Assembly (NCBI RefSeq): GCF_000238775.2
Contig: NZ_AFEJ02000002.1
Span: 1,535,501 to 1,599,500, forward strand
Direction of reading: 5' to 3'
Length of the DNA stretch: 64,000 nucleotides
DNA from: Acaryochloris sp. CCMEE 5410
GTDB taxonomy: Bacteria; Cyanobacteriota; Cyanobacteriia; Thermosynechococcales; Thermosynechococcaceae
This document shows positions 40,495 through 49,721 of this stretch, piece by piece (position 1 is the stretch's first letter; each line of letters begins with the position of its first letter). The position numbers and the translations under genes are program-made. The notes under the pieces were generated by a model. The model saw only the letters and a list, made by a program, of their open reading frames with translations, did not search any database and was not told the DNA's origin.

Positions 40495-41754
40495 ATGAAC
40501 GTCAGCCTCAGTCTGGCCCTAAACGATGACCAACTTGATGCATCCCAAGGAACGCAACAACGGCAATTATCCATTGCTGTGTCTGCCATTCACGACACGG
40601 GATTGAACAATGGCACTCGCAACGCGCCCTTGAACCTCTGTCTGATATTGGATCACAGTGGCTCAATGACGGGCCGTCCGTTAACAACGGTCAAAGAAGC
40701 GGCCCAAAGCCTGATCGATCGACTCAATCCTGGCGATCGCATTGCTGTCGTAGCCTTTGATCACCACGCCAAAGTCCTGGTGCCCAATCAACTCGTGGAA
40801 GACCCCGAGCAAATTAAAGCCCTGATCCAAAGGCTTGAGCCTAAAGGGGGCACTGCCATTGATGATGGTATGAAGCTAGGGATTGAAGAGTTAGCGGTCG
40901 GTAAACAAGGCACGATTTCCCAAGCTTTTCTGCTCACAGATGGTGAAAATGAACATGGCGATAATCAGCGCTGTCAACAGTTTGCTGAGCTAGCAGCAGG
41001 GTATAACATAACACTCAATACCCTAGGCTTTGGCAGTCATTGGAATGAAGATGTCCTGGAAGGCATCGCGGATTCTGGGGGAGGAAGCCTCTCCTTTATC
41101 GAAAAGCCAGAGAATGCCGTAGATGTGTTCAATAGCCTGTTTACCCGCATTGAGACCGTCAGCTTAACCAATGCCCATTTCTTAATTTCCCTAAACCCCG
41201 GGGTCCGGCTGGCGAATCTCAAACCTGTAGCTCAAGTCACCCCCGAGACCGTAGAGCTACCAATTACAGAGGAAGGCGAGTTGGCCATTATTCGGATCGG
41301 AGATCTGATGACCCAAATGCAACGGACGGTACTAGCCAATCTTTATATTGACCAGCTCCCATCAGGTCGACAGACTATTGCTACCCTTCAGGTCCGCTAT
41401 GACAATCCTGCGTTGGAACAAACGGATCTGCTCTCCGAGAAAATCCCGGTTGAAATTGAGGTGACGGAAAGTTATCAACCCTCTTCGAACCCAGACGTTC
41501 AGAAAAATATTTTGGCGTTAGCCAAATATCGTCAGACGCAAATTGCAGAAACAAAGCTGCAGGAAGGCGATCGTGCGGGTGCAGCAACCATGCTGCAAAT
41601 GGCCGCAACTACTGCCTTGCAAATGGGGGATGAAAATGCTGCCACAATCTTACAAGGCAGCGCCACTCGTCTACAGGCAGGAGAAGAGCTGTCGGATAGC
41701 GATCGCAAAAAAACCCGCATCGTGTCCAAAACGACATTACAAGCCCCTTCCTAA
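40495..41754 (+). CDS. von Willebrand factor A domain protein
   Basis: This 419-residue protein has a VWA domain at about 40-220 with a complete metal-ion-dependent adhesion site: DHSGSM (DxSxS), then GGTAID (Thr) and LTDGEN (Asp). A beta-sandwich-like middle part follows (about 225-330) and then a helical, Gln-rich C-terminus with repeated LQ-x-x-x-x-AAT-x-LQ pattern. No signal peptide or membrane segment, so it is likely cytoplasmic. Such stand-alone bacterial VWA proteins often work with MoxR-type ATPases or in stress and kinase systems; no such partner is near. The next gene, 61 bases on, is the site-2 protease. Confidence 0.88.
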   Translation: MNVSLSLALNDDQLDASQGTQQRQLSIAVSAIHDTGLNNGTRNAPLNLCLILDHSGSMTGRPLTTVKEAAQSLIDRLNPGDRIAVVAFDHHAKVLVPNQLVEDPEQIKALIQRLEPKGGTAIDDGMKLGIEELAVGKQGTISQAFLLTDGENEHGDNQRCQQFAELAAGYNITLNTLGFGSHWNEDVLEGIADSGGGSLSFIEKPENAVDVFNSLFTRIETVSLTNAHFLISLNPGVRLANLKPVAQVTPETVELPITEEGELAIIRIGDLMTQMQRTVLANLYIDQLPSGRQTIATLQVRYDNPALEQTDLLSEKIPVEIEVTESYQPSSNPDVQKNILALAKYRQTQIAETKLQEGDRAGAATMLQMAATTALQMGDENAATILQGSATRLQAGEELSDSDRKKTRIVSKTTLQAPS

Positions 41755-45636: not shown

Positions 45637-47271
45637 TTACTGAGTTTTCTCCAGAATCGGGTTCATCCCGTGACGTTGGATCAGTTGCATTCTATCTTGC
45701 GCTTCTCGCACAGAGGCAAATGACCCCACTTGCATCACGGATCGTCCTTTGTAGGAAGATCGAAATGCACCGGGAACCAACCCTTTAAGCTTACTTTTTT
45801 GACGGGAGTTAAAGGCTGACACGACGACTCGATATCGCGGTCCCAATGCAATCGTGGAGGAGGGGGGTGCAGGGGGTAAACCCGCTCGAAGATTATAGAT
45901 ATCAGAGCCTTTATCTGCTCGACCTATGGGAATTCGAGAACCTGGTACCGGGAGCACACCTACCAGAGCAGGCACAGTTCTTAGGGCGAGACGACGCCGA
46001 CTATCTTTGATGACCTCAGGCTTTAAACCATTTCGTTCCATCAGCTTAACCATGCGTTCCAGTTTGGAGCGACTGTCAAATAACCCCACTTGCATCACGG
46101 ACCGCCCCTTATGGGAGGATCGAAAGGCATCGGGGACCAGAGACTTAATTTTAGATTTTTGTTTGGTATTGCGAGGTCTAACAACCACCCGATACAGGGT
46201 ACTAGACTGGCGGGCAGCTGATTGAAACCGACGCCCACTGTCAGCGGATGGGGAAGGAACCGGAATATCTACACCACGACTAGCAATTGAAGAAGGAGGG
46301 ACGGCAGCAATTCGAGACGGCCCATTTTCAATCACCTCTGGCCTCAAGTCATTGCGCTTCAACAACTTGACGATGTTATCGACTTTGGAGCGGCTATTGA
46401 ACAAGCCGACCTGCATCACCGAACGACCTTGGTAGTTGGATTGAAATGCATCTGGCACTATTGATTTGATGCGAGACTTTTGCTGACTATCATAAGGCTC
46501 AACGACAACGCGATAGAGAAAGCCTGACCGTGAGGCTGATGCAGTCCGAGAAGGAACAGGAATATCGACGGCTCTCTCAGGGGAAGGGGGCACAATAGGC
46601 TCCCTCCTCGCGGATGATCGCGGGGGAGGAGATAAGCGCCGTCCTGCAAAAACAGCCGGCTGTGCTTGCTCCGTATTGAGATAAACATGGCCTAGGGTTT
46701 TGCCATTGTAGGTCCGTTTAGCAAACTGCCAGCCCGAATTTAAATGAATTTTGAGCAAGCCAGAACTCATGCCTCCGGTCCTACCGATGACCATGGGTTC
46801 TCCTAACCGGCGAGAACTAGGCATACCTAGCAACAACAGCTCATCCCCTTGTTTCTGCAACGTCAATTGGTAATTTAACCCTAGATCTCTACCTGCCTGA
46901 CGAATAGAGTAGCCATTGCTATCGGTGCTGCGACCACAAATTCCCGTAAAGTCGAACTGGAGCAACAGGGGTTCAATTTCCGTTGGACTCGATCCATGCT
47001 CTTTCCAACATTTTTTGCTGCTAGAAATTTGCTCCAGGATCAGCAGATTGTAGTAGCCTCGATCGCGGGGGACTGCAACCGCAATAAATTTATTTTGGGG
47101 AACAGCTGTTTTTCCAAAGGTAGCGGCTAATAAGGTTTGAGGGCTGCGTTTACTCTCTAATAGGTCTGGATTTGTAGTGGGTATTCCAACTGCGATCGCA
47201 GGTAAAGTCGTCGCAAATGGAATGGCAGCAGCAGCGAATGCCGTCAACCTATGAAGAGATAAGTAATGCAT
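45637..47271 (-). CDS. Exported protein with three SPOR-like repeats
   Basis: This 544-residue protein has a signal peptide (residues 1-27, ALPAIAVG region) and a beta-rich N-terminal part with three cysteines. Three copies of a unit of about 65 residues follow, starting near 250, 357 and 477. Each reads YRVVV...KSK-K-VP-AF-S-x-x-GRSVMQVG-F-S-R-S-x-x-x-x-x-LL-R-N-x-L-P-E-VI. The GRSVMQVG strand and the trailing helix resemble SPOR domains, which bind denuded peptidoglycan. Linkers are Ser/Pro-rich, suiting extension across the wall. It begins an apparent pair with the M16 peptidase 23 bases downstream. Confidence 0.8.
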   Translation of the reverse strand: MHYLSLHRLTAFAAAAIPFATTLPAIAVGIPTTNPDLLESKRSPQTLLAATFGKTAVPQNKFIAVAVPRDRGYYNLLILEQISSSKKCWKEHGSSPTEIEPLLLQFDFTGICGRSTDSNGYSIRQAGRDLGLNYQLTLQKQGDELLLLGMPSSRRLGEPMVIGRTGGMSSGLLKIHLNSGWQFAKRTYNGKTLGHVYLNTEQAQPAVFAGRRLSPPPRSSARREPIVPPSPERAVDIPVPSRTASASRSGFLYRVVVEPYDSQQKSRIKSIVPDAFQSNYQGRSVMQVGLFNSRSKVDNIVKLLKRNDLRPEVIENGPSRIAAVPPSSIASRGVDIPVPSPSADSGRRFQSAARQSSTLYRVVVRPRNTKQKSKIKSLVPDAFRSSHKGRSVMQVGLFDSRSKLERMVKLMERNGLKPEVIKDSRRRLALRTVPALVGVLPVPGSRIPIGRADKGSDIYNLRAGLPPAPPSSTIALGPRYRVVVSAFNSRQKSKLKGLVPGAFRSSYKGRSVMQVGSFASVREAQDRMQLIQRHGMNPILEKTQ

Positions 47272-47639: not shown

Positions 47640-49721
47640 TCAGCCTTCCTCTTCTTCCTGAATCCAAGTTTCTTTGGGATCCGGCGTTTGAGACATCTGG
47701 GGATTCATCCCTTCAGGAAAGTCCTCGTCTTGTATCCAAGTTTGCCTTGGATCTGACGTTTGAGGCGCATCCATCGCGGGGGATAGCTGATCATCTTGAA
47801 TCCAAGTTTGTTTTGGATCTTGCAGTTGAGTCGGCGGCGAATCGATGCCAAACGGATTATCTACCGCTTCCATCCAAGCCTGTTGAGGCTCCTGAAGCTG
47901 GGTTGGACTAGAGTCTTGGAGTTGAGTTGAACTGGAATCTTGAAGTTGAGTCGGATTTGGTTCTTGCAATTGGGTAGCGCTGAGATCTTGGAGCTGTGTC
48001 AGACTCGAGTCTTGGAGCTGAGTTGGGTTAGGCTCCTGCAGTTGGGTGGCACTCAAGTCTTGGAGCTGAGTCGCCGTTGGGTCTTGGAGCTGAGTCGGGT
48101 TCGAATCCAATGGATCGTATAGCTGGGTTGGGCTTGAATCAAGGTCCTGTGCGGCTGCCAGATCTTCACTGTCAGGGACTTGAAGCTGAGTCGCCGTTGG
48201 GTCTTGGAGCTGAGTCTTTGGGCCTCGCTGGGATGGCGGCGTATCCTGCAGTTCAGTTTTAGGATTTTGAATGCGAGTTTGTGCCTGTAACTCCCGAGAC
48301 GTAATATCCACCCACTCATCCGGGGCTTCTGGTTCCATTTCAGGAATCTGCAGCTCAGTTTCTGATCCTTGCAGCTTCGTTTCAGCTGGCATAGCCATCT
48401 CGTTAACTGCCCCTGCCGTCGCCGCCCCCAACACCACATTTTCAGGGGAAAGAGGACTACCGCCTTCCTCACCCACTGGCCCTGAAGGGGATGGAGTTGG
48501 GGGCTCTTGTAACGCTGTTTCAGGCGCTTGAATCCGAGTTGGTCTTATTTTTTCAGCATAATTGGGGGCCGGTCGCGGTGCTGGTTTTGGCTTAGATTTT
48601 GCCAGCAATGTTTTCAATACACCACCCACGAGTCCCCCCAACACCAAAACCATAAGAGCTATGGGTAGCCACCCTAGTCCGCCAGACGTATCTTGAGGGT
48701 CTCCTGCCGTCTCTGTGCTCGCAGATGGTGGGTCCGTACCATCTGGACTAGAACCATCCGATGATGCCGACGGGGGATTGCCTGATTGAGCATAATCCGC
48801 AGATCCAGCATTGGCATCTGTTTTTCCGTCCTGGGCAGAATCCTTCGTCGATGAACCATTGGCGCTGGCGTCATCGGATATTGCAGGTTGGGTCTTCGCT
48901 TCAGCAATCGCATCTTGTCCCGGAGCAGAGGCCACAAAGTCGAGAAACGTCTTAGTCGAGGCAGTGGGCGTACCTTGATAGACATAGGTAAAGGGCTGAG
49001 AAAAGGGATAGCGCGGATCATCCGGCAAAGTGTTGTACATGGAGAGGGGACGAATCGCTTCAGCTTCGCCAATCTGGCTGGCAAGGGCATAGCTAATGCC
49101 ATCCTTACCCAATTCATCCATCAGCGCCGAAACGTCATCTTGATCTAACTGCACAATTTGACCGCCCGCTTCAAAGTTAGCGGCTCGGAATAATTCATAG
49201 GTTTGTAGCGTACTTTGAAGATTGCTGGCTATCGGACGATGAATCACACGGATAGGGGCAGAGGGTCCTCCCAATTCGGACCAGTTCGTAATTTCTCCCC
49301 GAAAAATCTTTACCACTTGGTCAATAGTTAACCCCTTGGCAAAGGGATTATCTTGGCCTACCACAATGGCAATTTTTTCCCGGGTAACGGGGACTTGGAC
49401 TAAACCCTGTGCTTTCTCTTCCTCAGTAAGGAGACGGCTAATGGCCGCTAAATCAGCCTGTTGACCTTTGACCTGGAGCGGAGCATCAGCCTGCTGGCGC
49501 TTAATCTCAACCGTCGTATCCGGGGTTTGATTTTCATAGTGCTGCTTGAGCGCCTGATTAATCGGAGCCATGCGGGTCAGATTGTCGATGCGAATGGTTG
49601 TCGCCCCTTCCTGAGCTTGCACCCGTTGCCCAACCGATTCCGGCAAAAGGATTGCCGAGGAGACCCCCAACGTGACCACCATCGCTAGCTGGGAAATAGA
49701 AGTAGATCGTTTGGGTCTCAT
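47640..49721 (-). CDS. PstS-like substrate-binding membrane protein with T-x-L-Q repeat tail
   Basis: The open frame starts at 49739, but ATG 49721 (MRPKRSTS) has GGAGGC eight bases upstream, giving 693 residues. A signal segment (to about 38) precedes a PBP-like domain (about 45-285) of the PstS phosphate-binding type (TIRIDNLTRMAPINQALKQHYE, IVVGQDNPFAKGLTIDQVVKIFRGEITNWSELGG). A Ser/Gly/Asp-rich linker and one membrane helix (LGWLPIALMVLVLGGLVGGVL) follow. The C-terminal 280 residues, probably cytoplasmic, are disordered, with many T-x-L-Q units, 12 exact TQLQ copies mostly eight residues apart, and three TWIQ units at the end. Confidence 0.85.
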   Translation of the reverse strand: MRPKRSTSISQLAMVVTLGVSSAILLPESVGQRVQAQEGATTIRIDNLTRMAPINQALKQHYENQTPDTTVEIKRQQADAPLQVKGQQADLAAISRLLTEEEKAQGLVQVPVTREKIAIVVGQDNPFAKGLTIDQVVKIFRGEITNWSELGGPSAPIRVIHRPIASNLQSTLQTYELFRAANFEAGGQIVQLDQDDVSALMDELGKDGISYALASQIGEAEAIRPLSMYNTLPDDPRYPFSQPFTYVYQGTPTASTKTFLDFVASAPGQDAIAEAKTQPAISDDASANGSSTKDSAQDGKTDANAGSADYAQSGNPPSASSDGSSPDGTDPPSASTETAGDPQDTSGGLGWLPIALMVLVLGGLVGGVLKTLLAKSKPKPAPRPAPNYAEKIRPTRIQAPETALQEPPTPSPSGPVGEEGGSPLSPENVVLGAATAGAVNEMAMPAETKLQGSETELQIPEMEPEAPDEWVDITSRELQAQTRIQNPKTELQDTPPSQRGPKTQLQDPTATQLQVPDSEDLAAAQDLDSSPTQLYDPLDSNPTQLQDPTATQLQDLSATQLQEPNPTQLQDSSLTQLQDLSATQLQEPNPTQLQDSSSTQLQDSSPTQLQEPQQAWMEAVDNPFGIDSPPTQLQDPKQTWIQDDQLSPAMDAPQTSDPRQTWIQDEDFPEGMNPQMSQTPDPKETWIQEEEEG
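47816..48226 (-). repeat. Tandem coding repeat encoding TQLQ-D/E units
   Basis: Within the PstS-like gene, most copies are spaced 24 bases apart and encode the unit T-Q-L-Q-[DE]-x-x-x (with x-x-x often P-T-A or S-S-P). Twelve exact TQLQ copies and one TQLY are visible here. The regular spacing and mixed codon use suggest old tandem growth followed by drift, with the TQLQ core kept. Confidence 0.8.

Follow-up and report, generated by a model that had tools for sequence, protein, structure and literature searches.

The window, that is, the whole 64,000-nucleotide stretch of Acaryochloris DNA analyzed here, harbors two genes whose products carry a short T-x-L-Q (TxLQ) motif, one for a receptor-like membrane protein and one for a vWA-domain protein. 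Their features are as follows (aa, residues of the receptor protein).

47640..49721, reverse strand: whole receptor gene, an ATG ORF of 693 aa with signal peptide, PBP_like_2 domain, membrane helix and TxLQ tail.
49614..49721, reverse strand: signal peptide, aa 1–36, with a hydrophobic core by hydropathy and a putative cleavage site.
48924..49616, reverse strand: PBP_like_2 domain, aa 36–266 (PF12849, 8.1e-38); nearest solved chain 9l8j, Sll0540 (1.9e-54).
48681..48884, reverse strand: Ser/Thr/Gly/Asp-rich linker, aa 280–347, poorly conserved in the ortholog alignment.
48603..48680, reverse strand: single membrane helix, aa 348–373, hydropathy peak 2.3, with positive residues behind it.
48552..48578, reverse strand: juxtamembrane motif PRPAPNYAE, aa 382–390, from the ortholog alignment and a degenerate DNA pattern search.
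47658..48539, reverse strand: TxLQ array, aa 395–688, with 21 T-x-[LI]-Q, including 12 TQLQ and 3 TWIQ.
40495..41754, forward strand: vWA-domain protein whose vWA part resembles that of ArnB, the second motif bearer in the window.
41731..41742, forward strand: C-terminal TTLQ of the vWA protein, within the end SKTTLQAPS; 27/30 loci read end in KTxLQ.

Architecture of the receptor protein and its PBP domain

Behind the PBP domain, hydropathy analysis revealed one strong hydrophobic stretch at aa about 346–373, which is followed by the sequence KTLLAKSKPKP. The part behind the helix spans about 315 residues (not about 280, as had been estimated), of which 54 are acidic and 14 basic, and it is probably disordered. 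By the positive-inside rule, the one indicator of topology here, the array tail would lie on the cytoplasmic side, as the first-pass annotation had proposed. The order of signal peptide, PBP domain, single helix and tail also bears out the receptor-like architecture put forward in that annotation. Structure prediction of the PBP-helix part of the window protein and of two orthologs (L031 and L032) gave a pLDDT of 36, unusable for a fold search.

The PBP domain scored 131.1 bits against PF12849 (cut-off 27), which confirms the PBP-like assignment, and 83.3 bits against the PstS family model TIGR02136, below the cut-off of 206.6. Where Sll0540 or a phosphate-binding relative has the loops GSTS and SGT, the window protein has NLTR and SNL in the alignment; loops of the GS[ST] and SGT types hold the phosphate in relatives. 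The ligand of the domain may not be phosphate, and the earlier description "PstS-like" proved loose. The fold family and the annotation of relatives would fit a PstS-type phosphate-binding uptake protein to which the tail is irrelevant. We regard this as extremely improbable, because the protein is membrane-anchored, misses the TIGR02136 cut-off and has changed GSTS and SGT loops, and because no pst transporter gene was found among the neighboring genes given to Pfam, in line with the transporter-free setting first described.

Relatives of the PBP domain were found at E 1e-50 in 58 of 145 class genomes (own genome included), many of them in long open frames. From 29 further PBP loci that were fetched, 11 tails were read, 7 of which are truncated at the locus edge; ten of the 11 lack T-x-[LI]-Q and one, in L197, contains two copies. 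DUF4912 was confirmed in L172, the sole PBP relative given to Pfam. An architecture of PBP domain, helix and long further part thus seems to be common among cyanobacteria, with the TxLQ array as the form that this further part takes in one lineage; other cyanobacterial PBP_like_2-TM proteins, such as those with DUF4912, resemble the receptor in the PBP domain, and many have a long frame after it, but the tails differ. A search of plasmids for the receptor yielded distant PBP proteins only. The loci L171–L199 represent a large cyanobacterial PBP family with long C-terminal parts and several copies in some genomes, and these proteins, at least one of which has DUF4912 behind the helix, look like receptors with another output.

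Composition and conservation of the TxLQ array

The window tail contains 21 T-x-[LI]-Q motifs, of which 12 are exact TQLQ and the last three are TWIQ, as first described; in 2000 shuffled versions of the same tail, the motif occurs 0.49 times on average and never more than 4 times. The eight-residue step that had been noted between motifs is exact in 10 of 20 intervals, and for 13 of them the length is a multiple of eight. Its DNA forms a degenerate tandem repeat with a period of 72 and 74% matches, so that the array is unlike a fresh duplication; the 12 TQLQ copies are written in 9 different codon spellings.

The receptor protein was found in all six other Acaryochloris genomes searched, and its open frame was read in each. 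The seven orthologs have PRPAPNYAE in common, and their T-x-[LI]-Q copies number between 9 and 32. Free variation of T and Q among relatives, which the first-pass annotation had named as evidence against a signaling array, was looked for and not found, and the Thr-specific motif is kept in 7/7 orthologs. Thr at the motif is selective, with Ser almost absent across the tails. In particular, the seven genus tails together contain 143 T-x-[LI]-Q (145 including V or M) and a single S-x-[LI]-Q, compared to a background of 21 TxLQ to 19 SxLQ in 28 own-genome kinases and 40 other window ORFs (145:1 vs 21:19, Fisher 5.5e-14, the orthologs not being independent). Six of the 21 background TxLQ belong to the vWA protein, which leaves 7 TxLQ to 9 SxLQ in the other window ORFs, and in the own-genome kinases the motif is not above background (8 TxLQ to 10 SxLQ in 28 kinases read, from 30 loci among 55 matches). 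When the tails were laid out in an eight-residue register of 171 units, 28 of them without motif, Thr was in place in 150/171 and Gln in 147/171, counts that are favored by the anchoring of the register on motif-bearing units, while positions -1 and -2 before the motif hold many different residues. Zero non-synonymous changes were seen at T and Q; this is forced by the choice of units and is not used as evidence. The tail thus holds a multi-copy, Thr-specific motif, its cytoplasmic side given by the positive-inside rule alone. FHA domains are selective for phosphothreonine (PMC6509490), and the near-absence of Ser in place of Thr is also what an FHA domain would demand.

An order-level search of 29 genomes revealed two further genera with a shorter form of the protein, one with the motifs THLQ, TRLQ and TTLQ (G016) and one with TVIQ and two TVLQ (G013). 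A degenerate DNA pattern for the first eight residues of PRPAPNYAE matched 9 of 388 class genomes, namely the seven Acaryochloris genomes, G016 and G013, and all nine hits are array-type orthologs. When the tail was used as a protein query against 376 class genomes, 22 of them matching, arrays were found only in the seven genus genomes. Of the 20 other loci from this search, L096 has NPTSINS repeats and one motif, L097 and L117 lie in a common frame whose NLTPIRIQ repeats include nine motifs, and in the remaining 17 no frame of 60 aa or longer contains more than a single motif. The L097/L117 frame (G199:C1:1505560-1506168) is open, comprises more than 20 NLTPIRIQ-like units and matches the tail by chance; it is probably a non-coding tandem repeat.

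The spread from 9 to 32 copies and the tandem-repeat nature of the array would also fit a tail that is only a passive, low-complexity spacer expanded by slippage. This we consider very improbable, as T and Q are kept while their neighbors vary, Ser is almost absent, the codon forms are many, and other proteins conserve the motif as a single copy.

The motif in Zn-ribbon/FHA and vWA proteins

Two proteins of the own genome carry TQLQ just before an FHA domain (30 loci scanned of 36 FHA matches); none of the own-genome FHA and kinase matches falls inside the 64-kb window, a point against the signaling reading. A query restricted to the FHA part, without the motif that precedes it, found homologs of this Zn-ribbon/FHA (Zn-FHA) protein in 91 of 116 class genomes. 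We read 51 sequences, comprising the 30 top-ranked loci, 20 chosen from lower ranks to add diversity and L045, and found T-x-[LIVM]-Q just before the FHA domain in 48 of them, never in a Ser form; the exceptions are L150, L168 and L169. The forms are TQLQ (36), TRLQ, TVLQ, TKIQ, TSVQ and others, with 3.8 bits of information at T, 3.1 at +2 and 3.7 at Q, compared to about 1 bit in the linker before the motif and in the three-residue spacer after it. In 13 further genomes, 20 of 24 Zn-FHA matches were readable by patterns and 19 had the motif. A TxLQ Zn-FHA protein is present in all 9 array genomes and, among seven other family genomes read, in G007, G008, G011, G014 and G017 but not in G015 and G026. 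Since Zn-FHA is widespread without the receptor, its co-occurrence with the receptor says little. L150 (G026) and L241 (G015) are Zn-FHA proteins without TxLQ from family genera where no receptor array was found.

In 46 of the 51 sequences the motif T precedes SRxH by exactly 52 residues, so the motif could be part of the fold. This near-fixed distance would suit an edge strand of the folded domain, of which the receptor tail would offer copies by strand complementation. We judge this explanation improbable: the spacer behind the motif is unconserved, the distance from motif to domain shifts in G008, G013, G014, G099 and G109, and the C-terminal motif of the vWA protein is ill-suited to a domain strand.

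The Zn-FHA proteins of L120 and L286 combine a zinc ribbon (PF13240/PF12773) with an FHA domain (PF00498), as in ArnA. Of the phosphothreonine-binding residues of an ArnA-type FHA domain (Arg, Ser and Thr/Asn), the canonical phosphate-contacting Arg is Lys in 51/51, while Ser and Asn are kept in 51/51, though the search pattern required both. The Lys counts against FHA binding of the motif, as does the Gln at pT+3, which is not known to be among the usual FHA preferences. The earlier suggestion that FHA domains read the motif gains independent support, in that TxLQ stands beside the FHA domain of a class-wide protein family and at the vWA C-terminus; the Arg to Lys change speaks against it.

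The window vWA protein contains a vWA domain (PF00092, 6.9e-22) that is related to ArnB: its residues 48–269 match chain 8s05_A of the ArnAB entry 8S05 at 9.9e-11, the second-best PDB match, although vWA domains of other kinds also match. No Pfam match to the ArnB C-terminal helical domain (PMC12852372) was obtained at E 0.5. Using residues 1–345 only as query, we found homologs in 57 of 96 genomes. At 30 loci, the own included, 27 C-termini are KTxLQ with 0–5 residues behind, and of the three exceptions one ends at the locus edge, one has KTILH and one KTMLS. The C-terminal, helical-looking part also contains ETKLQ, ATMLQ, TALQ, ATILQ and ATRLQ in the window protein and its class homologs (L254–L283).

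The archaeal Zn-ribbon and FHA protein ArnA binds phosphothreonines of the vWA protein ArnB (PMC6509490, PMC12852372, PMC10470591). As the Sulfolobales system is described in the available parts of these sources, it has, like the cyanobacterial proteins, a Zn-ribbon, a flexible linker and an FHA domain within one protein, a vWA partner whose Thr sites lie toward the C-terminus, and a kinase and a phosphatase in the network. Its ArnB sites are ETT/EQT rather than TxLQ, ArnA has Arg where cyanobacterial Zn-FHA has Lys, and, unlike in Acaryochloris, no membrane receptor array is described there. As the same parts recur, Zn-FHA, vWA, kinase and phosphatase, TxLQ may be the shared docking motif of a cyanobacterial ArnA-ArnB counterpart, and the Zn-FHA/vWA module a possible bacterial relative of the archaeal switch. 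Among PDB entries, Zn-FHA is matched best by GarA/OdhI, which likewise have a Thr motif N-terminal to the FHA domain. Their motif is ETT-type and farther from the domain than TxLQ in Zn-FHA, and they are not known to have a Zn-ribbon or a receptor array. In animals, the Zn-FHA layout resembles TIFA, where a pThr just before the FHA domain leads to oligomers in trans, and the receptor tail resembles LAT, whose membrane-anchored tail recruits readers through several phospho-sites; we claim no homology, and the proteins here are bacterial, with up to 32 T-x-[LI]-Q.

Gene neighborhoods and a possible docking platform

Both vWA and Zn-FHA genes are present in 55 genomes, Zn-FHA only in 21, vWA only in 2 and neither in 18 (Fisher 5e-7, phylogeny not controlled), and the two genes are adjacent in 6 of the 55. 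Four of these six adjacent loci were fetched. In one (L286, G048:C31) a gene that by its sequence is 6-phosphogluconolactonase-like is followed by vWA, by Zn-FHA, whose motif reads RTQLQ, by a Zn-ribbon PP2C and by an FHA-kinase in which HRD and DFG are both present. This candidate operon has the look of a bacterial phospho-switch that combines writer, eraser and reader. A pattern scan of the other three (L284, L285 and L287) found no kinase, PP2C or second FHA gene within about 7 kb, which weighs against the link to phosphorylation. By a loose pattern, a second FHA gene lies close to Zn-FHA in 22 of 30 loci. The own-genome FHA-kinase beside Zn-FHA (L120, G000:C1:3222091-3224500) has HRN and NFG in place of HRD and DFG and may therefore be a pseudokinase. 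The FHA-kinases of L286 and of the own genome keep GR, and such a kinase, rather than the Lys-bearing Zn-FHA, may be the true reader.

Because the motif is conserved in two soluble proteins that are encoded, in one genome, beside kinase and phosphatase genes, the tail probably serves phosphorylation signaling as a docking platform with multiple sites. Our preferred reading, which we hold to be somewhat probable, is that of a receptor-like protein whose tail presents, in many copies, a docking motif of the phosphothreonine type to a Zn-FHA/vWA module. In the mechanism we propose, the periplasmic PBP domain of the single-pass receptor would sense a ligand, and Ser/Thr kinases would most likely phosphorylate the threonines of TxLQ, both in the tail and in the Zn-FHA and vWA proteins. 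The FHA domain of the Zn-FHA protein, or a canonical FHA protein often encoded beside it, would bind phosphorylated TxLQ, and the multivalent tail would concentrate or titrate the Zn-FHA/vWA module at the membrane under ligand control. The signaling role first proposed for the tail is in this respect partly supported.

Strict T and Q, a hydrophobic +2 and a free +1 would equally suit a plain peptide-groove motif. TxLQ might then dock without phosphorylation into a groove of a common partner, be it a kinase, the vWA domain or another protein, with Thr needed as such, and the lack of the canonical Arg in the FHA domain of Zn-FHA agrees with this. The L286 motif bearers, however, are encoded beside kinase and phosphatase genes, and the motif adjoins an FHA domain, which points to phosphothreonine, so that we regard phosphorylation-free docking as rather unlikely. 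An extension of the preferred, phosphothreonine-dependent reading, possible if doubtful, is that T-x-[L/I]-Q is a class-wide cyanobacterial phosphothreonine code, common to ArnA-like Zn-FHA and ArnB-like vWA proteins with an FHA-kinase and a Zn-ribbon PP2C of the L286 type as writer and eraser, and that a receptor of the Acaryochloris lineage captured it as a multivalent tail that would nucleate Zn-FHA clusters at the membrane on ligand binding. If this were so, the receptor would be a bacterial counterpart of receptor signalosomes.

To our knowledge, few receptors and few docking codes are known for bacterial FHA and Ser/Thr kinase networks. Here, one short motif links three cyanobacterial protein families, including a receptor-like membrane protein; it supplies directly testable peptides, and the candidate writer, eraser and readers lie within one locus (L286). 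Anabaena FraH combines FHA with an N-terminal Cys motif and a Pro-rich linker, and may be comparable to Zn-FHA. A fraH mutant lacks honeycomb membranes (PMC11500504). Neither FHA nor vWA proteins are named in the main text of two phospho-studies on Synechocystis, which speaks against the phosphorylation reading, and FHA is absent from the main text of a review of cyanobacterial Ser/Thr phosphorylation (PMC11863333). In the literature on cyanobacterial TQLQ or FHA within our scope, which included the available parts of PMC6584798, PMC2176072 and PMC11863333 and left most subscription journals outside, we found nothing on a TxLQ motif.

Around the receptor gene itself, a vWA gene is found nearby in the window and in L031, L032 and L289 (about 6 kb or less in the last three) but not in L288, L290 and L292, while L291 ends too early to show; confined as it is to close kin, this proximity is weak evidence. 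The window also encodes, at 45637-47271 on the reverse strand, a DUF3747 protein with a SPOR domain and apparently three SPOR-like repeats, and in 6/6 genus contigs read the receptor gene is followed by a gene that appears similar from its position and its start.
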